The notes under the pieces were generated by a model. That model had not been told where the DNA came from, did not search any database, and was given only the letters and a program-made list of their open reading frames with translations. Shown here piece by piece: positions 42,799 to 56,433 of a stretch of 61,838 nucleotides of DNA. The translations under genes and the position numbers were made by a program. The first letter of the stretch is position 1. Each line of letters begins with the position of its first letter. The stretch is from Desulfatibacillum sp. Lineage in GTDB: Bacteria; Desulfobacterota; Desulfobacteria; Desulfobacterales; Desulfatibacillaceae. The DNA is taken from NCBI GenBank assembly GCA_016342355.1, contig JAEINP010000031.1, positions 1 to 61,838 on the forward strand. The letters run 5' to 3'.

Positions 42799-43695
42799 CT
42801 AAAAAGCCACCCCCAGGTTTCGATCGTGACTTTGACCCGCCTCTGTCACCAACCCCTTGGCCTTGTCGTAAAATTCCTGGTTTTCTGTTTCATATTGAAC
42901 TGTATAGTGGATAAATGTGCCGTATATGTCTTCGAACAAGCTTCGCACAGGTCCCCAGTATAGGTAGTCAACCATGCAACCCCTTTCAGGATCACATTTT
43001 TGTTGAACCTTATATATCTGATATCCTTCCTCAAGTAGGAGCCCAAAGTTGTCCCAAAAGGCGGTAATTTGAATGGGCTGGGTAAAACCGGTGGTTTTCG
43101 GAAAGGGCTGTTCCCAACAATACTCGGTTTGGGTAGACTCCAGGGTGACACATGGCGAAATCCGGTCCTTGTCGCCGTTCAACCGGACCATGGTGCCGCC
43201 GTACTCCCGGTCGTCCTGGCCCCACACCACCCGATCTATGCCCAACATGGCAGCCATGCCCGAACACTGGGCGCATGGCTCCAGGGTTCCGTACAGGGTA
43301 TAACCGGTCAAATCCTTAAGATTCTCCTGGAAAGAGTACCCCATAAGGGTGCGCACTTCCCCGTGTTGGGTTTTGTTGTTCACGAAATTGACTGAATTCC
43401 TAGCCCAATAAACAGGCAAAGCATCCTCCCCCCCATTGTTTACCAATACGCAGCCGATATTATACCCCCGGGGGTGCGTATCCGCTGTTTGCCAATCTGT
43501 ATAGACCACGCTGAACGCAGCCATGAGCCCAATGTAATCCCTTTCTTCTTGCCAGTTCGCGTGTCCCAGTATTTGGCTTTTCGGAATTGCCTGGCGAGTT
43601 TCCTGGGCGTTCAGGCCTTGGAAGCCCAGGCAAGCGGCGAATAAAAACAAATGAATGACCAGCAGGGTTTGGAATATCTTTTTAAAATGATTCAT
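42799..43695 (-). CDS. Exported cytidine/dCMP deaminase-fold protein
   Basis: The 298-residue protein starts with a typical export signal (KK at 5-6, hydrophobic stretch 10-25, cleavage probably after LNA at 30; a lipobox-like FAAC ends at 22). The mature part has a zinc-deaminase site: HGE at residues 111-113 (His ligand and catalytic Glu) and EPCAQC at 139-144 (two Cys ligands), preceded by YNIGCVLVNNGG. These are the CDA-fold signatures seen in cytosine, guanine and tRNA adenosine deaminases, all cytoplasmic enzymes. About 120 further residues of unknown nature follow. The substrate is unknown. It is a single gene with an operator-like repeat in its promoter. Confidence 0.82.
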   Translation of the reverse strand: MNHFKKIFQTLLVIHLFLFAACLGFQGLNAQETRQAIPKSQILGHANWQEERDYIGLMAAFSVVYTDWQTADTHPRGYNIGCVLVNNGGEDALPVYWARNSVNFVNNKTQHGEVRTLMGYSFQENLKDLTGYTLYGTLEPCAQCSGMAAMLGIDRVVWGQDDREYGGTMVRLNGDKDRISPCVTLESTQTEYCWEQPFPKTTGFTQPIQITAFWDNFGLLLEEGYQIYKVQQKCDPERGCMVDYLYWGPVRSLFEDIYGTFIHYTVQYETENQEFYDKAKGLVTEAGQSHDRNLGVAF

Positions 43696-48075: not shown

Positions 48076-48087
48076 AAGGGGATGGAT

Positions 48088-48936
48088 ATGGATATTCGCA
48101 GGGCGCAATTCATGGGAAGCTGGTACCCCGCCTCTGACAAAGAGTGCGAGGCGAAAATTTTGGACTTTATATCGGACATGCCCGAGGTGGAGCCTGGCAT
48201 AAAACGGCTTGGGGGGATTGTGCCCCATGCGGGCTGGGTTTATTCCGGGATGATTGCCGCCCAGGTTATTGCGGCCCTGAAAGGGGACACACCCCCGGAC
48301 GTCATCGCTGTTTTTGGTATGCATCTGGCGCCCCGGCATCCCAATTTTATTATGGCCAAGGGCGCCTGGGAAACCCCTTTCGGTCCCTTGGAGATTGCCG
48401 AGGACGTGGCGGGCCAGCTTGCCAAGGGCTTTACGTTTGAAATCGAAAGCGCCGATCGGCATGTCCAGGACAACACCATTGAGCTGCAATTGCCCTTTAT
48501 CAAATATTTTTTCCCTAAAGCGCGCATCGTGCCCATTGGCGTGCCCCCCACGGACCGTTCCCTGGCCATTGGGGAAGCCTTTGTGGATGTTGCCGGGCGC
48601 CTGGGCTATTCGGCAAAGGTCATCGGGTCCACGGACCTCACCCATTACGGCTCCAATTACGGCTTTTCTCCGGTAGGCTCGGGCCCCAAGGCTATTCAGT
48701 GGGTTAAGCGGGAGAACGACAGGAAGGTCTTGGAGAGAATCATGGCCATGGACCCCCGGGGACTGATTGATCAAGCCCTGGAAAATTCCAATGCCTGTTG
48801 CGGGGGGGCCGCTGCCACGGCCATTGCCGCTGCCAAGCGCCTGGGCGCGGAGCGGTCCCAGATTCTTGCCTACTCCACCAGCTATGATATTACCCCGGCG
48901 GAAAGTTTTGTGGGGTATGTGGGAGCGGTTTTTTAA
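48088..48936 (+). CDS. Stand-alone Memo/AmrB family protein
   Basis: The 282-residue protein belongs to the MEMO1/LigB-like family (AmmeMemoRadiSam protein B): MDIRRAQFMGSWYP, GGIVPHAGWVYSGMIAAQV, IAVFGMHLAPRHPN, DNTIELQLPFIKYFFP, STDLTHYG and a late Cys pair (NACCGGAAA). The His positions of the LigB-type site appear conserved. It has no signal peptide, unlike its paralogue 4 kb away. AAAGGGG lies 6 nt before the ATG at 48088; an ATG at 48082 lacks spacing. A redox or RNA-modification role has been proposed for the family; neither is established. Confidence 0.9.
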   Translation: MDIRRAQFMGSWYPASDKECEAKILDFISDMPEVEPGIKRLGGIVPHAGWVYSGMIAAQVIAALKGDTPPDVIAVFGMHLAPRHPNFIMAKGAWETPFGPLEIAEDVAGQLAKGFTFEIESADRHVQDNTIELQLPFIKYFFPKARIVPIGVPPTDRSLAIGEAFVDVAGRLGYSAKVIGSTDLTHYGSNYGFSPVGSGPKAIQWVKRENDRKVLERIMAMDPRGLIDQALENSNACCGGAAATAIAAAKRLGAERSQILAYSTSYDITPAESFVGYVGAVF

Positions 48937-49032
48937 CCGTTCAGGCTTCAAGAATATATAAAAAAGCTCTGTCAAAAAAAGATGCTTCAAATTTTTTTAC
49001 ACAGACTCTCCCGCCGACAAATTTGGGAAAAT

Positions 49033-51324
49033 ATGAAAACCAAGCTCAAAATCGGTATGTCCATGAATCGCCCGATGGGAATCACAGTCACTGTTTGCCT
49101 AATATTTTTGGGCCTTTGTTTGGGAATCGGAATTTGTGGAGACTTGGTTCTTTCAGGCTCAAATTCAGTTGACGGCCTGGTTATCAATGAATTCATGGCG
49201 GATAACGATTCCACTACTGCTGATCCTGCCGGGGATTACGACGACTGGATTGAGCTGTACAATAACGGAAGTTCCACCATCTCTTTGAAGGGCTATTTTC
49301 TTTCGGACGATGCGGACGATCCTGAAAAGTGGACTTTTCCGGACGTAACCATCGAGGCGGGCGGAACCCTTTGCGTTTGGGCTGATGAGGACGAGGATCA
49401 GGACGGGGTGCATGGAAACTTCAAACTGTCCAAGTCAGGAGAAACCATTATTCTTTCCGCTCCGGGCGGAGGAGTGGTGGATCAGGTTGTCTTTGGGGTT
49501 CAGGATACAGATGTGAGCACCGGGAGATACCCGAACGGAACCGGAGGATTTGTTAGGATGACGCCCACCTTCGGGGCGGAAAATATCGAGAAATCCCTCC
49601 AGGAGGGAGACGTGGACGGGAACGATTCCGTGGCGTTGAACGATGTTGTGCTGGCTTTGCAGATCATGGCAGGTGTGGAGCCGGACGCCGCAATATATAC
49701 GGGTGCGGACGTGGATGGCGACACAAACATCGGCCTCCAGGAAGCCTTGTACGGGTTGCGGTACACGGGAGTCACCTACATCACGCTGCAAACCAACTCC
49801 ATAACTGTGCATGGGAGGGGTGCAAGCGTGGACGGCAGTGTGGTGACCATCGGTTCTGCTGGAACGTACAGGATTAGCGGAACTTTGGTTGATGGCCGGA
49901 TTATCGTGGATACCAGTGATTCGGACACGGTTTTCCTTATTTTCAACGGGGTCTCTGTCGCCAGCACCATATCCGCCCCCTTGTTTATTGCGGACGCCGG
50001 GAATGTTGTTATTGAATTGTGTGAAAATACGGAAAATTATTTTACAGATAGCGCCAGTTATATATACGGCGACCCGGAGGAGGACGAGCCCGACGCTCCG
50101 GTTTTCAGCAAGTCCGACCTGACTATCCAGGGCAGCGGCCTGCTTTCGGTGGACGCCAATTATAATGACGGCATCAAAAGCAAGGACGGGCTCACTATCC
50201 TGGGCGGGACCATTGTTGTCAGTTCGGTGGATGACGGCATCCAGGGCAAGGATTATCTGAATATTCAGGGCGGAACATTTACCCTGGACGTAGGCGGCGA
50301 CGGTTTAAAATCCAGCAAGGAGGGAGATCCGGACCTGGGTTACATAAATATCAGCGGCGGGATATTTATCATTGATTCGGGAGGCGACGCCATCCAGGCC
50401 GAAACCAATATCAATATTTCCGGCGGGGTTTTTACCCTGACCTCGGGCGGGGGCAGCAATGCCATCATAAGTGCAGACGACTCGGCCAAAGGGATCAAGG
50501 CCGTGGTGGGAATAACCATCGACGCGGGAACCTTCACCATAAACACGGCGGACGATTCCATTCATTCGGACAAGGACATAACCATCAATGGAGGCGTTTT
50601 TTCCATTGCGACCGGGGACGACGGAGTTCATTCGGATTCGACCATCACCATCACCGGAGGGGAATTCGATATAACCGATTGCTACGAAGGTATTGAAAGC
50701 ACCATTATTACGATCAACGACGGGAATATTCATATAGTTTCCCGCGATGACGGGGTGAACGTGGCCGGTGGAACGGATGATTCGGACGGTGGAGGTTTTC
50801 CCACCCCCCAGAACTATTTCCTGTATATAAACGGCGGCTACATTGTGGTGGATTCCTATGGTGACGGTATTGACGTGAACGGCTCCATTGTAATGACAGG
50901 GGGCGTGGTGCTTGTTAACGGCCCCACCGTCATGAATAACGGGCCTCTTGATTATGATCTGTCGTTTACCATTTCCGGGGGATTCCTCATAGCCGTGGGG
51001 AGCACGGGCATGGCCCAGGCTCCCAGTCCGATCTCCACCCAGTATTCCGTATTGTTCAGATCCTATGTCACTAAGCCGGAGGAAACCCTGGTTCATGTGC
51101 AGGACAGTTCCGGCAATACTGTTTTTACCTTTGCCCCTGCCAAGCGGTATCAGTCTGTTTGTTTTTCCATGCCTGCCCTGACTCACAACGCCTCCTATGA
51201 CCTTTATTGGGGCGGGACCTCCACAGGCACGGCCACGGATGGGCTTTACGAGGGCGGCGTCTACACCCCGGGGACCAAATACACCACCTTTACCGTGCAT
51301 GACATGGTGACAAACATCAACTAA
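49033..51324 (+). CDS. Secreted beta-helix carbohydrate-binding protein (Cthe_2159/DUF4353-like) with lamin-tail and dockerin-like repeats
   Basis: This protein of about 763 residues has an N-terminal export signal (hydrophobic MGITVTVCLIFLGLCLGIGI). A lamin-tail domain spans about 50-180 (VINEFMADNDS, DDWIELYNNGSSTISLKGYF). A dockerin-like pair of calcium loops follows (GDVDGNDSVALNDVVLALQI, ADVDGDTNIGLQEALYGLRY, about 192-250). From about 290 on it is a beta-helix of repeated GI-x-SKDGLTILGG-type turns (NDGIKSKDGLTILGG, DDGIQGKDYLNIQGG, DDSIHSDKDITINGG), as in the Cthe_2159 family that binds acidic polysaccharides. Its role is probably adhesion or cell-surface polysaccharide binding. GGGAAAAT precedes the ATG at 49033; another ATG lies at 48982. 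Confidence 0.82.
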   Translation: MKTKLKIGMSMNRPMGITVTVCLIFLGLCLGIGICGDLVLSGSNSVDGLVINEFMADNDSTTADPAGDYDDWIELYNNGSSTISLKGYFLSDDADDPEKWTFPDVTIEAGGTLCVWADEDEDQDGVHGNFKLSKSGETIILSAPGGGVVDQVVFGVQDTDVSTGRYPNGTGGFVRMTPTFGAENIEKSLQEGDVDGNDSVALNDVVLALQIMAGVEPDAAIYTGADVDGDTNIGLQEALYGLRYTGVTYITLQTNSITVHGRGASVDGSVVTIGSAGTYRISGTLVDGRIIVDTSDSDTVFLIFNGVSVASTISAPLFIADAGNVVIELCENTENYFTDSASYIYGDPEEDEPDAPVFSKSDLTIQGSGLLSVDANYNDGIKSKDGLTILGGTIVVSSVDDGIQGKDYLNIQGGTFTLDVGGDGLKSSKEGDPDLGYINISGGIFIIDSGGDAIQAETNINISGGVFTLTSGGGSNAIISADDSAKGIKAVVGITIDAGTFTINTADDSIHSDKDITINGGVFSIATGDDGVHSDSTITITGGEFDITDCYEGIESTIITINDGNIHIVSRDDGVNVAGGTDDSDGGGFPTPQNYFLYINGGYIVVDSYGDGIDVNGSIVMTGGVVLVNGPTVMNNGPLDYDLSFTISGGFLIAVGSTGMAQAPSPISTQYSVLFRSYVTKPEETLVHVQDSSGNTVFTFAPAKRYQSVCFSMPALTHNASYDLYWGGTSTGTATDGLYEGGVYTPGTKYTTFTVHDMVTNIN

Positions 51325-52261: not shown

Positions 52262-52657
52262 TTAGGGCACCCGGCCCCCCCATTTGGCCTTGACCACGGT
52301 TCCGTCTGGCTGGATACTGATGACGCGTTCCTGCTCCATGTTTTGTATGAAATCCACAATCACAGCCCGGTTTCCCTCCAGGTTTGCGCCCCGTTTGCTT
52401 ATGGGGGTGAGGTAGGTTACCAGTTGTTCCACGTCCACCCTTCCCTGGTTTTTCCGTATATACGAAAGGGCCTTTCTTCGCACATACCAGGGGGCGGAAA
52501 TACGTATCACGGCAAAGGCCACCCCGAAGGTGACAAAGGGCAGAAGCACCACCCCCAAAAAGGCATGGAGCTTCCACGCGAGAAACTCGATGAAAACCAG
52601 GATAATGGCCGCGGCGGCTAAAATCCTGGTGGGTTCAGGCTGATTAATGGATTGCAT
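52262..52657 (-). CDS. Small membrane protein with helical C-terminal domain
   Basis: This protein of about 131 residues has two hydrophobic helices (ILAAAAIILVFIEFLAWKL and FLGVVLLPFVTFGVAFAVI) and a cytoplasmic-looking C-terminal part that resembles a winged helix (EQLVTYLTPISKRGANLEGN, FIQNMEQERVISIQPDGTV). I recognise no family. It is the last gene after the Memo-AMMECR1 fusion, 38 nt away on the same strand, so it may belong to that operon. The start is unsure (ATG at 52657 or TTG at 52693). Confidence 0.65.
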   Translation of the reverse strand: MQSINQPEPTRILAAAAIILVFIEFLAWKLHAFLGVVLLPFVTFGVAFAVIRISAPWYVRRKALSYIRKNQGRVDVEQLVTYLTPISKRGANLEGNRAVIVDFIQNMEQERVISIQPDGTVVKAKWGGRVP

Positions 52658-52695
52658 AACGAACCGATTTTTTGAGATTATTGGAAAGCCCAAGC

Positions 52696-54207
52696 CTATT
52701 CACTGTGCTCGGAAAAATATTCAGCTTCATAAACTTCCACTTTGACGCCCGGATCCTGCCAGCACCCGGGGGACATTCCCCCCTTTTTGCAAAGTTGGGT
52801 CAGGAAGTTCTGGGGATTGGAAAGCTGCTCCCACACCTGGGGCAAAAAGGTGGACCGATTTCTGCCCTTGCTCAGGATAACCCCGTGGACCCCGGGTTTT
52901 ATTTTGGTTAAAAGGTCTTTTCCATCTGTAAATTGAATTTCTTCCGGTACGGTGAGTACGCTCACCTCCACTTCGATGTCATCCAGTTCCTGGGCGGTCA
53001 AAGGAGAAAACCGGGGATCCCTGAAGGCCGCGTTATAGGCGTTGGATTCCACCCCTTCCATAAGTGACTGGATAGGCTCAATGGTGCCAATGCATCCCCG
53101 CAACTGGCCGTTTTTGTGTATGGTTACAAAGCAGCCCCGCTTTTCCATAAGAAGGGGCGAGGGCGCCTCGGGCCGCTGGATTTTCGTATCGGTCAGCCTG
53201 GAAGCCATGACACTGCGGGCCAGTTGGAGCAAATCAGTCTTATCCTGCGGCGATGTATGGGACGGCATGGCGTATTCTCCTTTAATGTCAGTAAATGCTA
53301 TAGCGGCGTATCCTACAACCTTGTCCTTGGCGCCTGTGGTGTCGCCGGAGTTCCGGTAATCCAGCAGGGTTCCTGTCCAGCCCAGTTTTTCTGCCACTTT
53401 CATAACGGTGACTGTGGGAACCCATGCGCAGGCCTGACAGTTTTTCATGGCCTGAAAGTCAAGGCTGGGAACAGCCTGACAGCAAGTGGCGTCCAGGTTT
53501 CGGGCTTTTTCATAGGGATAGTAGTGGGAAAGATCGGTGCTGGCAATAATAAAGAATCCCTGGCGCACCAGGGGCAGCAGGATATCCGCCAGATCATCGG
53601 GGTTCACCCTTTGTCCCAGGAGGATGGGTATGAATTCGAAATTCCCCAGAACGACCTGCAAAAAAGGCAGTTGCACTTCAATGGAGTGTTCACCCTCATG
53701 GGCATGGCTGATGCTGGAAAAACCGGGCTGTCGCAAAAGAGCTTTGGCCTCCGGCGCTACCGGAACCCTTCCCAAAGGGGTTTGATAAGCGGATACATTG
53801 GGGATAGAAGCCCCGCTATAGCGCATCCGGTGGCTGGACCCGATGATAATGACCTTGCGGGTGGCCGGAGGAATTGTGTTGTAGGCAGCGCCTGCCACAA
53901 TTCCTGAATACACATACCCGGCATGGGGGGATACCAGGGCGCGCACTGTGCCTTTGACCCGGGTTTGTTTTGCGTCCCGCAAAAATTCTTTGACCTGGGC
54001 TTTCAGCGTTTGGGGATCGCCAGGATAAAACCTGTCCGCCACGGCTGGCTTTCGCACATCGTCAATGCCTTCCATGGCAGGAATTTCCCGGGCAAAAAAA
54101 CATGCCATGATAATCATACAGGCAAAAGGCGCGATTCTGAAAAGGCTTTTACGAAGTCCATGCCCAAAGGAATGCGAATACCGCTTACTATTTATATCTT
54201 TGTTCAT
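52696..54207 (-). CDS. Memo-AMMECR1 fusion protein (AmmeMemoRadiSam proteins B and A) with N-terminal signal/anchor
   Basis: The 503-residue protein joins two AmmeMemoRadiSam components. Residues 22-40 are a hydrophobic segment (SLFRIAPFACMIIMACFFA, possibly with a lipobox IMAC). About 50-320 is a Memo domain (RFYPGDPQTL, SPHAGYVYSG, IIIGSSHRM, HSIEVQLPFLQVVLGNFEFIP, ASTDLSHYYPYEKA). About 330-500 is AMMECR1 with LRGCIGTIEPIQSL near 369. All conserved His and Cys residues are present. It starts 1 nt after the ICMT-family gene. The family is usually soluble and cytoplasmic, so the N-terminal signal is notable. The function is not established. Confidence 0.9.
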   Translation of the reverse strand: MNKDINSKRYSHSFGHGLRKSLFRIAPFACMIIMACFFAREIPAMEGIDDVRKPAVADRFYPGDPQTLKAQVKEFLRDAKQTRVKGTVRALVSPHAGYVYSGIVAGAAYNTIPPATRKVIIIGSSHRMRYSGASIPNVSAYQTPLGRVPVAPEAKALLRQPGFSSISHAHEGEHSIEVQLPFLQVVLGNFEFIPILLGQRVNPDDLADILLPLVRQGFFIIASTDLSHYYPYEKARNLDATCCQAVPSLDFQAMKNCQACAWVPTVTVMKVAEKLGWTGTLLDYRNSGDTTGAKDKVVGYAAIAFTDIKGEYAMPSHTSPQDKTDLLQLARSVMASRLTDTKIQRPEAPSPLLMEKRGCFVTIHKNGQLRGCIGTIEPIQSLMEGVESNAYNAAFRDPRFSPLTAQELDDIEVEVSVLTVPEEIQFTDGKDLLTKIKPGVHGVILSKGRNRSTFLPQVWEQLSNPQNFLTQLCKKGGMSPGCWQDPGVKVEVYEAEYFSEHSE

Positions 54208-54208
54208 T

Positions 54209-54904
54209 TCACCATATTCCGGGAATCAGCCTGCTTCTTGTCTTTTGGGCGTATGCGGCGTACCCTTCCAGTTCGTTTTGCAGCATTCGGTCTTCAAGGG
54301 CGGTACGCACAATGACAGCAATGACAGCGCAGCCTGCGGGAATCAAAGCATAAGCTGTTCCGATGATCAATGGGTCGGCAAGTGCGGTAAGAATCATGGC
54401 CACATAGCCTGGATGCCGGACAAACCGGTACGGTCCCTGGGTGATTACCTGGTGTTCCCGATCTTTTTGGATGCGGGAGGAACTTTCGAAGTGGCGGTTG
54501 GTCAGCATGGCCCAATGGACTATCACAAAAAAAACCAGATAAAACACGATGCCTATGATCTCAAACTCAAGCCCCAGCCTCGGCTGCGCAAGCCTTCCCG
54601 CCTCCAGACCGGCCACAAGAGGACTGGCGACCAAAACCATCAGGAAATATACCAGCAAGATAATCTTGTCCCAGGCCTTAGTTCCCTCGCCAAGGGAAGC
54701 CCGGCGGTTGGCCAGTCCGGGCGCCAATTTCGCCATTATCAGAGCACCAAGGACGCCCCCCATAAGATGAATTCCAAAAGCAAGCCATGCCCTGGGAATA
54801 TCCAGCCGTCCGGCCGCCAGGAAAAAAACGATCGCCATTATAAGGGTCCAGCGGATAGGGGCGCGCAGACTCCTGGCGCCTTTTTTGGTCAGTTTTTCTT
54901 CCAT
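54209..54904 (-). CDS. ICMT-family (isoprenylcysteine carboxyl methyltransferase-like) membrane protein
   Basis: This protein of about 231 residues has some five hydrophobic helices and the ICMT/PEMT signature QGPYRFVRHPGYVAMIL near residue 150, then EDRMLQNELEGYAAYAQKTR. This signature binds S-adenosylmethionine in integral-membrane methyltransferases of lipids or isoprenylated groups. The substrate is unknown. GGAGA lies about 10 nt before the ATG at 54904; the frame runs 20 codons further upstream without support. It lies tightly between amrS and the Memo-AMMECR1 gene, so it is probably part of the same pathway. Confidence 0.85.
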   Translation of the reverse strand: MEEKLTKKGARSLRAPIRWTLIMAIVFFLAAGRLDIPRAWLAFGIHLMGGVLGALIMAKLAPGLANRRASLGEGTKAWDKIILLVYFLMVLVASPLVAGLEAGRLAQPRLGLEFEIIGIVFYLVFFVIVHWAMLTNRHFESSSRIQKDREHQVITQGPYRFVRHPGYVAMILTALADPLIIGTAYALIPAGCAVIAVIVRTALEDRMLQNELEGYAAYAQKTRSRLIPGIW

Positions 54905-54921
54905 GATTGATATGTCTCCAA

Positions 54922-56043
54922 TTAGGCCCACACGCCCTGGACTGGGGTGCTGCAGAAGGGGCACCGGCCATCCAGGACACCATTATAATCCAAATGGTAT
55001 CCATGTCGGTTGACCAGGGTTTTATGGCAGACGGAACATAGAACAGGATTATCCAATCCCGGAATATTCCCCAGGTAAACGTGTTTAAGGCCTTCTTTGG
55101 ACGCTGTCTGACCCGCTTCCTTCATGAAATCCACCGGGGTGGCGGCCAGGTGGACTAACCGGTAGTTGGGATAGAACCGGGAAAGATGAAACGGGGTTTC
55201 CTGCCCCAGGTTTTGAGCCACCCAGTGGCAAACCCGTTTTATTTCATCCAGGTTATCTGTATAGGTGGGTACCACCAAATGGATGATTTCCACCCACACA
55301 CCGTTGTCTTTGTAGGTTTTAATAGCCTCCTGGACCGGGGCCAGGTGTCCGCCGTTAAGGTCCATGTAAATTCTATCGGACAAGGACTTTAGATTGAGGG
55401 CGGCGCCGTCCATATATTGGCTAAGGCGGCGGGCCGGGTCCGGGTTGATATAGGCGTTGGAAACCAGGATATTTTTTATTCCCTGTTCCCGGGCGAGTTT
55501 AGCCGTATCCAGCATATATTCGTAATAGGTGGTGGCCTCCGAGTAAGTGTAGGCTATGCTTGTACACCCGTTCTTGATGGCGTGGGCGACAATATCTTCA
55601 GGCGGTTTGTAGTAGTTTCGGGTTTTATCCGGAGTGGTTTGGGAGATTTCCCAGTTCTGGCAGTTGAGGCAGGTAAAGTTGCAACCTGCCACGGCCAGGG
55701 AAAAAACCCGGCTTCCAGGCTGGAAATGGTACAAGGGTTTTTTTTCAACAGGGTCTACGTTCAGGGCGCAGGGGTTGGCGTAGGAAATGGAGTAGAGCCG
55801 TCCTTTCATGTTAATTTTTGCGCCGCATTTGCCGCGTCGGTCCGGAACGATGAGGCAGGTGTGGGGGCAGGTGAGGCACTGGACCGTTCCCTGGCCCAAG
55901 GCTTTGTAGAAGTAGGCCTCCTTCATGGTTCTGGAGTCCCACTCCAGGTCCTTGGCTGCCCAGGTACTACTCAGGGGGAGCAAGAGACCCTGGCCAGCCG
56001 CCGCCGCAGCTGCTTTAAGGAATGTGCGCCTCGTTGGCGCCAT
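54922..56043 (-). CDS. amrS: AmmeMemoRadiSam-type radical SAM protein with Tat signal
   Basis: The 373-residue protein carries an N-terminal twin-arginine signal MAPTRRTFLK followed by an Ala-rich stretch to about 30. Next are a Cys cluster CLTCPHTC with GKCG (residues 56-73), the radical SAM motif CNFTCLNC at 121-128 with an aromatic NW after it, and a C-terminal zinc-ribbon-like pair (CSVCHKTL and CPFCSTP). The arrangement matches the AmmeMemoRadiSam system radical SAM protein. A Tat signal implies transport of a folded, cluster-loaded protein across the membrane, which is unusual for radical SAM enzymes. Whether SAM and an electron donor are available outside is unknown. It begins the three-gene operon amrS-ICMT-Memo/AMMECR1. 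Confidence 0.9.
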   Translation of the reverse strand: MAPTRRTFLKAAAAAAGQGLLLPLSSTWAAKDLEWDSRTMKEAYFYKALGQGTVQCLTCPHTCLIVPDRRGKCGAKINMKGRLYSISYANPCALNVDPVEKKPLYHFQPGSRVFSLAVAGCNFTCLNCQNWEISQTTPDKTRNYYKPPEDIVAHAIKNGCTSIAYTYSEATTYYEYMLDTAKLAREQGIKNILVSNAYINPDPARRLSQYMDGAALNLKSLSDRIYMDLNGGHLAPVQEAIKTYKDNGVWVEIIHLVVPTYTDNLDEIKRVCHWVAQNLGQETPFHLSRFYPNYRLVHLAATPVDFMKEAGQTASKEGLKHVYLGNIPGLDNPVLCSVCHKTLVNRHGYHLDYNGVLDGRCPFCSTPVQGVWA

Positions 56044-56199
56044 GGCGCCCCTCCTAGTTACGTTTGGACTCCGGTAAAAGGCTAAGGAACAGCGGGGTGG
56101 AAATGAAGCCTCAAAAAAGCCCGTTACTCTAAAACAGGCATAGGCTTGAAGCTGTCAAAGCCAAAGGGGTCAGGGCAAGGCCACCGTGTGGAGCTCACC

Positions 56200-56433
56200 C
56201 TACAAATAGGTTTTCCAAAAATAAAACCATCCGCCAAGGATGCCTATGGCTACGGCAAACCAGACGTAGGCTTTCCATTTGCCGGGAATGATTGCAATGC
56301 CGTGTTTGTCCGGGTCTCCCACCTTGCGGTGGCAGGCATGGCACTTCGTGTCTGCCAGGGTCAGGATGGTGGAGCAATACGGGCATTTTTTCGAAAAAAT
56401 TTTTGCGGAAGTTTGGGAACCCTGAGTTGTCAT
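56200..56433 (-). CDS. Small zinc-ribbon membrane protein
   Basis: The 77-residue protein has a zinc ribbon CPYC (17-20)/CHAC (31-34) and a C-terminal transmembrane helix (AYVWFAVAIGILGGWFYFW). GAGG lies 8 nt before the ATG. It lies 156 nt upstream of the Tat-radical SAM gene on the same strand and could be its co-transcribed partner. I recognise no family beyond the zinc ribbon. Confidence 0.75.
   Translation of the reverse strand: MTTQGSQTSAKIFSKKCPYCSTILTLADTKCHACHRKVGDPDKHGIAIIPGKWKAYVWFAVAIGILGGWFYFWKTYL

Follow-up and report, generated by a model that had tools for sequence, protein, structure and literature searches.

A candidate extracytoplasmic AmmeMemoRadiSam operon in Desulfatibacillum and its putative carrier partner

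We analyzed an operon on the minus strand of a 61,838-nucleotide stretch of Desulfatibacillum sp. DNA (contig JAEINP010000031.1; hereafter the window). The operon encodes all three parts of AmmeMemoRadiSam: the radical S-adenosylmethionine (SAM) protein AmrS and a fusion of Memo with AMMECR1. Our data suggest, with a probability of roughly 0.58, that it is the Desulfatibacillum copy of an extracytoplasmic AmmeMemoRadiSam branch that works with a carrier, which would supply SAM or recover a by-product. Export-signal predictions make it likely that the catalytic set is placed outside the cytoplasm; the assignment of the partner protein as an adenosyl carrier is tentative. The parts belong to known families; what would be new is that the whole set is exported in a coordinated way and linked with a carrier, as neither feature appeared in the part of the open-licence PubMed Central literature that was covered. 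The main features are:

54922-56043 (-): radical SAM protein AmrS, 373 aa (TIGR04337, 305.8 bits, cut-off 220)
55954-56043 (-): AmrS twin-arginine leader, MAPTRRTFLK... (TIGR01409 and PF10518 above cut-off)
54209-54904 (-), counted from its own ATG: ICMT/PEMT-type membrane methyltransferase, 231 aa, ~5 transmembrane (TM) segments by hydropathy (PF04140, 44.2 bits, cut-off 24; PF04191 also above cut-off)
52696-54207 (-): Memo-AMMECR1 fusion, 503 aa, with a hydrophobic N-terminal leader and a possible lipobox, IMAC (TIGR04336, 240.2, cut-off 26; TIGR04335, 209.6, cut-off 99)
53299-54048 (-): Memo domain of the fusion, residues 54-303 (PF01875)
52714-53229 (-): AMMECR1 domain of the fusion, residues 327-498 (PF01871)
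48082-48936 (+): second Memo, a leaderless paralogue outside the operon (TIGR04336, 225.5 bits; PF01875)
G000:C78:30347-32434: partner gene elsewhere in the window's genome, unlinked to the operon; its product is 52% identical to the partner protein of locus L019

Coordinates and profile matches confirmed the tight minus-strand operon, with gaps of 17 and 1 nt, that had been described in the initial annotation of this DNA. The intergenic gaps 3' of amrS are 17, 1 and 2 nt (amrS, ICMT, Memo-AMMECR1, two-TM gene). The twin-arginine signal proposed there for AmrS also held, as residues 1-45 scored 22.8 against TIGR01409 (cut-off 16.7) and 23.0 against PF10518 (cut-off 22.7). The first 45 residues of a leaderless AmrS paralogue (L001) matched neither model, and whole-protein scans of the window proteins at E 0.001 returned no TAT model. 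We observed an AGGAGG six bases ahead of the leader ATG. Met40, the next AmrS start at the edge of the core, had no ribosome-binding site at the usual distance, and the leader is therefore very likely translated. The leaders of the Memo-AMMECR1 fusion and its L011 relative are both hydrophobic and differ in their letters. The window's genome contains one tatC (G000:C104, 1.3e-73), a second AmrS with no leader (contig C11), and the second Memo in the same window, also leaderless; an own-genome search for AMMECR1 gave a single match, the domain of the fusion. Export targeting of AmrS, Memo and AMMECR1 is a well-supported prediction from sequence.

We assessed how far the leaders extend using two sets of loci. 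Set A (L011-L090) held the best 80 of 460 relatives from a genome-contig scan with the window's AmrS; it is biased to leadered AmrS because the query is leadered, and contig ends truncate many of its loci. By record title, Desulfobacterota and Bacteroidales make up most of it, and it includes two Theionarchaea and one Woesearchaeote bin; the archaeal and many other records are metagenome bins, in which foreign contigs are possible. Set B held 75 loci, about every second row among the better AmrS matches in genomes of the window's phylum, where AmrS was found in 277 of 297 genomes. Leaders were called by motif and hydropathy rules rather than by SignalP or TatP. These rules pass over stretches containing a charged residue or His, and they missed the leader of L089 and, by eye, also those of L100 and of the L186 Memo.

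At the AmrS N-terminus, 78/80 set-A loci had an RR, KR or RK motif with a hydrophobic stretch after it, the remainder (L034, L085) being cut by the contig start. Set B divided into 27/75 leadered and 48/75 leaderless AmrS (one of the latter, L115, cut by a contig start). In a FastTree phylogeny of 160 AmrS rows with local support values, one part of 46 rows was wholly leaderless and included the genome's own C11 copy. A group of 113 rows (support 97) contained all 105 rows scored as leadered and eight scored as leaderless. Three of these eight are cut by contig starts (L034, L085, L115), and three (L128, L150, L087) are leadered by the motif rule and leaderless by the stricter rule used to score the tree. 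The last two, L096 and L097, are truly leaderless and are sisters at the base of the leadered group. A further leaderless AmrS, L093, sits on a long branch just outside the group. One locus, L154 (2889-5143), carries two leadered AmrS genes in tandem.

The leaders on AmrS, Memo and AMMECR1 mostly covary. Among set-A fusions with a readable start, 39/40 had a leader by rule and the 40th (L089) by eye, and all 12 single AMMECR1 proteins of that set were leadered (12/12). Beside leadered AmrS in set B, the rule found leaders on 7/8 Memo and 2/3 single AMMECR1 proteins. N-terminally cut rows were left out of these counts (in set A, Memo of L073 and AMMECR1 of L055 and L058). We compared these values to samples C and D, the 30 best phylum matches to AMMECR1 and to Memo, respectively, some genomes being in both. 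There, leaders occurred in 3/15 single AMMECR1 and 1/25 single Memo proteins, and in 8/13 (AMMECR1 sample) and 3/6 (Memo sample) of the fusions. In the AMMECR1 sample, the genomes with the eight leadered fusions had two to five AmrS matches each, and those with the four unbroken leaderless fusions (L180, L194, L195, L197) had one. Given the AmrS tree and this covariation, many chance gains of the leader are not favored. The claim that all three parts carry export targeting, made from the window alone, is thus supported across 80 set-A and 75 set-B loci. L188 and L223 (G057:C330) show a leadered Memo-AMMECR1 fusion that is apparently interrupted by a TAG stop and adjoins a leadered AmrS.

By their cluster and metal residues, the leadered AmrS and Memo proteins look intact. 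AmrS has eleven conserved Cys, comprising CxxxCxxC at 121/125/128 and four each toward the N- and C-termini, and these were kept in 105/105 leadered rows, with a gap at the last two Cys in one of them. Memo H95, H126, E173, E177, D225, H228, D239 and C260 were kept in 62/62 leadered rows and H174 in 61 of 62, the rows including some near-copies or rows fetched twice; H95, H126, D225, H228 and C260 form the metal site. The nearest solved sequence relative of AmrS is the pyruvate formate-lyase activating enzyme (3c8f; 4.3e-7), to which AmrS adds the N- and C-terminal Cys motifs and the export leader. Human MEMO1 (3bcz, 7kq8) and archaeal AMMECR1 (1zq7, 1vaj) are sequence relatives of the fused domains; these are single proteins, whereas the operon encodes one leadered fusion. 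The set resembles AmmeMemoRadiSam as defined by TIGR04335, TIGR04336 and TIGR04337, models that name no reaction, in that three domains above the curated cut-offs are encoded together. It differs in the export signals on every part, in the separate group in the AmrS tree and in the extra putative carrier partner.

That partner came from clustering of the genes within 6 kb of amrS. A protein of ~700 residues, a multi-TM protein with a spermidine-synthase domain, was present in 63 set-A loci, compared to 57 for Memo/AMMECR1 and 7 for the next-commonest family. Its gene ended ≤400 bases upstream of amrS in 61/80 loci, and it was in the locus of 62/78 leadered set-A AmrS. In the 9-kb loci of set B, we observed it beside 11/27 leadered and 0/48 leaderless AmrS (P = 2.7e-6; L115 contig-cut). 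At the genome level, with full length taken as over 200 bits, 26/27 genomes with leadered AmrS had the partner compared to 3/22 with leaderless AmrS only (P = 1.5e-9); the 22, each with one AmrS, were searched a second time, scoring all candidates. By family group, the counts were 19/19 and 3/17. The P values take genomes or families as independent. The sole leadered genome lacking the partner, G041, is 85% complete, and one of the three exceptions among the leaderless, G239, is 68% complete. Mere kinship was rejected as the source of the co-occurrence, because family groups with both kinds split the same way (f15, two leadered and three leaderless-only genomes; f57, one and one). Five of the six genomes of the window's subclade have the partner (one as a partial frame). 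The initial annotation missed it because the gene is unlinked to the operon in the window's genome. One single-contig genome, G038 (99% complete), has leadered AmrS and the partner with no TatC match, which would mean Tat loss or another export route.

In the other two exceptions, G024 and G195, the gene next to the partner encodes a further radical SAM protein (PF04055, above cut-off) whose leader looks Tat-like by eye. This gene is not amrS, its best curated NCBIfam match being 24 to 27 bits and below cut-off. On the strength of these two genomes, the partner may follow exported radical SAM proteins and not AmrS as such. This second kind of leadered radical SAM protein (~360 aa) lies beside the partner in L245 (3783-4886) and L246 (402-1487). 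It was also seen beside leadered AmrS in L098, L102, L104, L109, L130 and L167 (Pfam checked for L102, L245 and L246).

The L019 partner was modeled with a predicted local distance difference test score (pLDDT) of 89.4 and a predicted template modeling score (pTM) of 0.88. Its membrane part has the major facilitator superfamily (MFS) fold (Z 28.2, root-mean-square deviation (rmsd) 3.1, 332 aligned, 4iu9, a match spanning the whole length; SV2A, NorC and PepTSt also listed). The soluble part has the spermidine-synthase fold (Z 26.8, rmsd 2.9, 262 aligned, 6bq6). It sits in the middle of the MFS part, flanked by two extra hydrophobic helices (187-202, 496-513). Positive residues fit an inside location of the termini and of loops 6-7 and 8-9 in 37/37 proteins and in 25/25 of a second set that was not used to draw the loops, each half tested separately. 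With the two extra helices taken as transmembrane, this charge pattern and the model predict that the soluble domain is outside the membrane, if both helices cross.

In spermidine synthases, we take the positions of E300 and D327 to hold ribose and adenine, and the acid of GGG[DE]G and the catalytic Asp (Asp345 in the partner) to serve aminopropyl transfer. We observed E300 in 61/62 partner rows and D327 in 62/62. The GGG[DE]G acid (position 281) was absent in 62/62 (0/37 and 0/25), and Asp345 was kept in 27/62 (24/37 and 3/25). A new pair, N355-R356, was invariant (62/62). Because the adenosine-site residues are kept and the transfer residues lost, the partner is probably a binder of an adenosyl compound and probably incapable of aminopropyl transfer. 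An ordinary spermidine synthase was rejected on the loss of the transfer residues. Like the fused MFS/spermidine synthase (NF037959) and TM-type polyamine aminopropyltransferase (NF002956/PRK03612) types, the partner joins a membrane part to a spermidine-synthase domain. Unlike these types, it has that domain predicted outside between extra helices and has lost the aminopropyl-transfer residues. Five partner proteins scored 29-48 bits against NF037959 (cut-off 40, two above) and 87-155 bits against NF002956 (cut-off 472). Solved spermidine synthases (1uir, 3anx, 6qmm, 8iyi) share its fold and adenosine site, whereas the partner lacks the GGG[DE]G acid and has the catalytic Asp in only 27 rows.

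These data are consistent with the following scheme. AmrS would be folded and loaded with its iron-sulfur cluster in the cytoplasm and then exported by the twin-arginine translocation (Tat) system, and the Memo-AMMECR1 fusion would leave through its own N-terminal signal. The two would act jointly on a target outside the cytoplasmic membrane. The partner would move or present SAM to AmrS at the outer face, or retrieve 5'-deoxyadenosine, and electrons for the exported AmrS would come from the membrane or periplasm. The computations show the signals and how they covary, the co-occurrence of the partner, and its predicted fold and lost residues; we infer actual export, the side on which the partner's soluble domain lies, the ligand, the direction of transport and the substrate. 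Among open reading frames (ORFs) of at least 60 residues, we observed no recurrent small secreted substrate family near amrS, and a dedicated small secreted substrate was rejected. A dedicated protein therefore seems a less likely target than a lipid, wall precursor or general protein. A 2019 Journal of Biological Chemistry paper on the Memo superfamily reportedly links Memo to the modification of nucleotide bases and aliphatic isoprenoids, and it may include some of the gene contexts described here.

A number of observations weigh against this scheme. Extracytoplasmic SAM and reductant must be postulated, and the part of the open-licence PubMed Central literature covered gave no case of either; no extracytoplasmic supply of SAM is known. 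That same literature, with subscription journals and preprints outside its scope, held no description of an exported AmrS or of the partner. Homologues without signals in the same operon context, which the initial annotation had named as evidence against export, were found in part. Memo is leaderless beside leadered AmrS in L044, L049 and L065. In L096 and L097, Memo is leadered (as is AMMECR1 in L097) and AmrS is leaderless. Because of these last two loci, we lowered our estimate for extracytoplasmic placement slightly, and that for the whole reading from 0.6 to 0.58. TatC was found in 45/49 genomes and not in the other four (G038, G042, which is 67% complete, and the genomes of L052 and L077). 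The motif, taken alone, is RK in 22/79 leaders of set A and the window. No TAT model matched the leaders of L040 (an RK leader) and L072 (Bacteroidales), and those of L036 and L062 score under the TIGR01409 cut-off. No partner was found in the genome of L036, and in the window's genome the partner gene is unlinked to amrS. The partner's inside and outside loops were drawn after the mean charges were seen, and the loops that touch the soluble domain, with 1.4 and 2.1 K/R, are not decisive. A Glu at 283, two places past the lost acid, was present in 9/37 partner rows.

Two side observations concern these loci. L096 and L097, as basal relatives with a leader on Memo and none on AmrS, are a possible half-way stage. 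The Memo of L044, L049 and L065 is a longer variant and is followed by an NMT1-like protein and possible TRAP-type uptake genes.

We considered four alternatives to an exported set served by a carrier. The set may be exported and the partner may be an enzyme; its outer domain would take a group from a SAM-like donor and attach it to a lipid or wall precursor, which AmrS and Memo-AMMECR1 would then modify. We consider this unlikely. The retention of E300 and D327 and the invariant N355-R356 pair fit such an enzyme, whereas the absence of the GGG[DE]G acid from its place in 62/62 rows and the patchy Asp345 do not. Alternatively, the chemistry of AmrS could take place in the cytoplasm, either ahead of Tat export or in the course of it, so that only a modified product or spent enzyme is found outside. 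SAM and reductant are available in the cytoplasm, Tat is generally known to export folded proteins, and the leaderless AmrS of L096 and L097 beside leadered Memo fits as well; however, Memo and AMMECR1 mostly have signals of their own and would not meet AmrS there, and we regard this alternative as improbable.

The third alternative takes the ICMT-type methyltransferase as the functional partner, which would point to a membrane-bound lipid or protein substrate, as the initial annotation had proposed. The tight operon and the PF04140 and PF04191 matches speak for it. However, amrS has this gene as a neighbor in just two cases, the window's genome and L011 (Desulfatibacillum alkenivorans), and in none of the other 79 set-A loci or the 75 set-B loci. 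The ICMT equivalog NF040696 (protein-S-isoprenylcysteine methyltransferase) scored 58.7 against a cut-off of 160. On its presence in two genomes only, ICMT was rejected as a core partner and fails as a substrate clue, and this alternative is quite improbable. In the fourth, the leaders do not serve for export, and the proteins would work in the cytoplasm like those of the leaderless branch, RNA being one example of a target. It draws on the RK leaders and the four genomes without a TatC match, but the separate signals of the three domains mostly covary and are absent from same-genome paralogues, which makes it very improbable. The argument, already made from the window alone, that export would keep the set from modifying cellular RNA was upheld.

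The remaining neighbors of amrS are:

56200-56433 (-): small zinc-ribbon protein with one C-terminal TM segment
52262-52693 (-): small two-TM protein, no family at E 0.001; elsewhere seen in L011 only

Both genes are present as the initial annotation had placed them on either side of the operon. The zinc-ribbon gene may be a transcription unit separate from amrS, since the two genes are 156 nt apart and the gap contains a hairpin with a T run (56139-56119; by consensus match alone). It was found 5' of amrS in 6/6 members of the window's subclade (L002, L011, L017, L035, L036, L037), with no phmmer match in the other loci searched alongside those six, and is older at the locus than the ICMT gene. 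Near leadered AmrS in L095, L112 and L129, we observed a membrane-bound polyferredoxin together with a small TM protein; the polyferredoxin protein of L129 is NapH-type, under that model's cut-off. In these three loci, the polyferredoxin neighbors are a possible electron route to leadered AmrS. DUF362 proteins adjoin leadered AmrS in L127 (5249-6265, with a TAT model match), L137 (5206-6132) and L060 (3924-5282). Elsewhere in the window, 48982-51324 (+) encodes a Cthe_2159 carbohydrate-binding and Lamin Tail protein between the leaderless Memo and a GntR/UTRA regulator. At 42799-43695 (-) is a cytidine/deoxycytidylate deaminase-type protein (PF00383) whose N-terminus looks like a signal sequence; export would be unusual for a deaminase.

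A wider reading, which we hold to be doubtful, is that radical SAM enzymes operate beyond the cytoplasm in bacteria, and perhaps in some archaea too, and depend on a dedicated carrier, of MFS fold with a disarmed spermidine-synthase domain on the outside, to export SAM or to recover 5'-deoxyadenosine. As part of that same doubtful reading, two radical SAM families with Tat-like leaders would share one carrier type. No reaction is known for the common radical SAM set AmmeMemoRadiSam, and humans have relatives of two of its parts. A branch placed outside the membrane would remove RNA and most cytosolic molecules from its list of substrates. An exported radical SAM enzyme together with a co-occurring carrier would make the question of extracytoplasmic SAM directly testable. 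If the reading is correct, radical chemistry would run outside the cell membrane, where it is unexpected.

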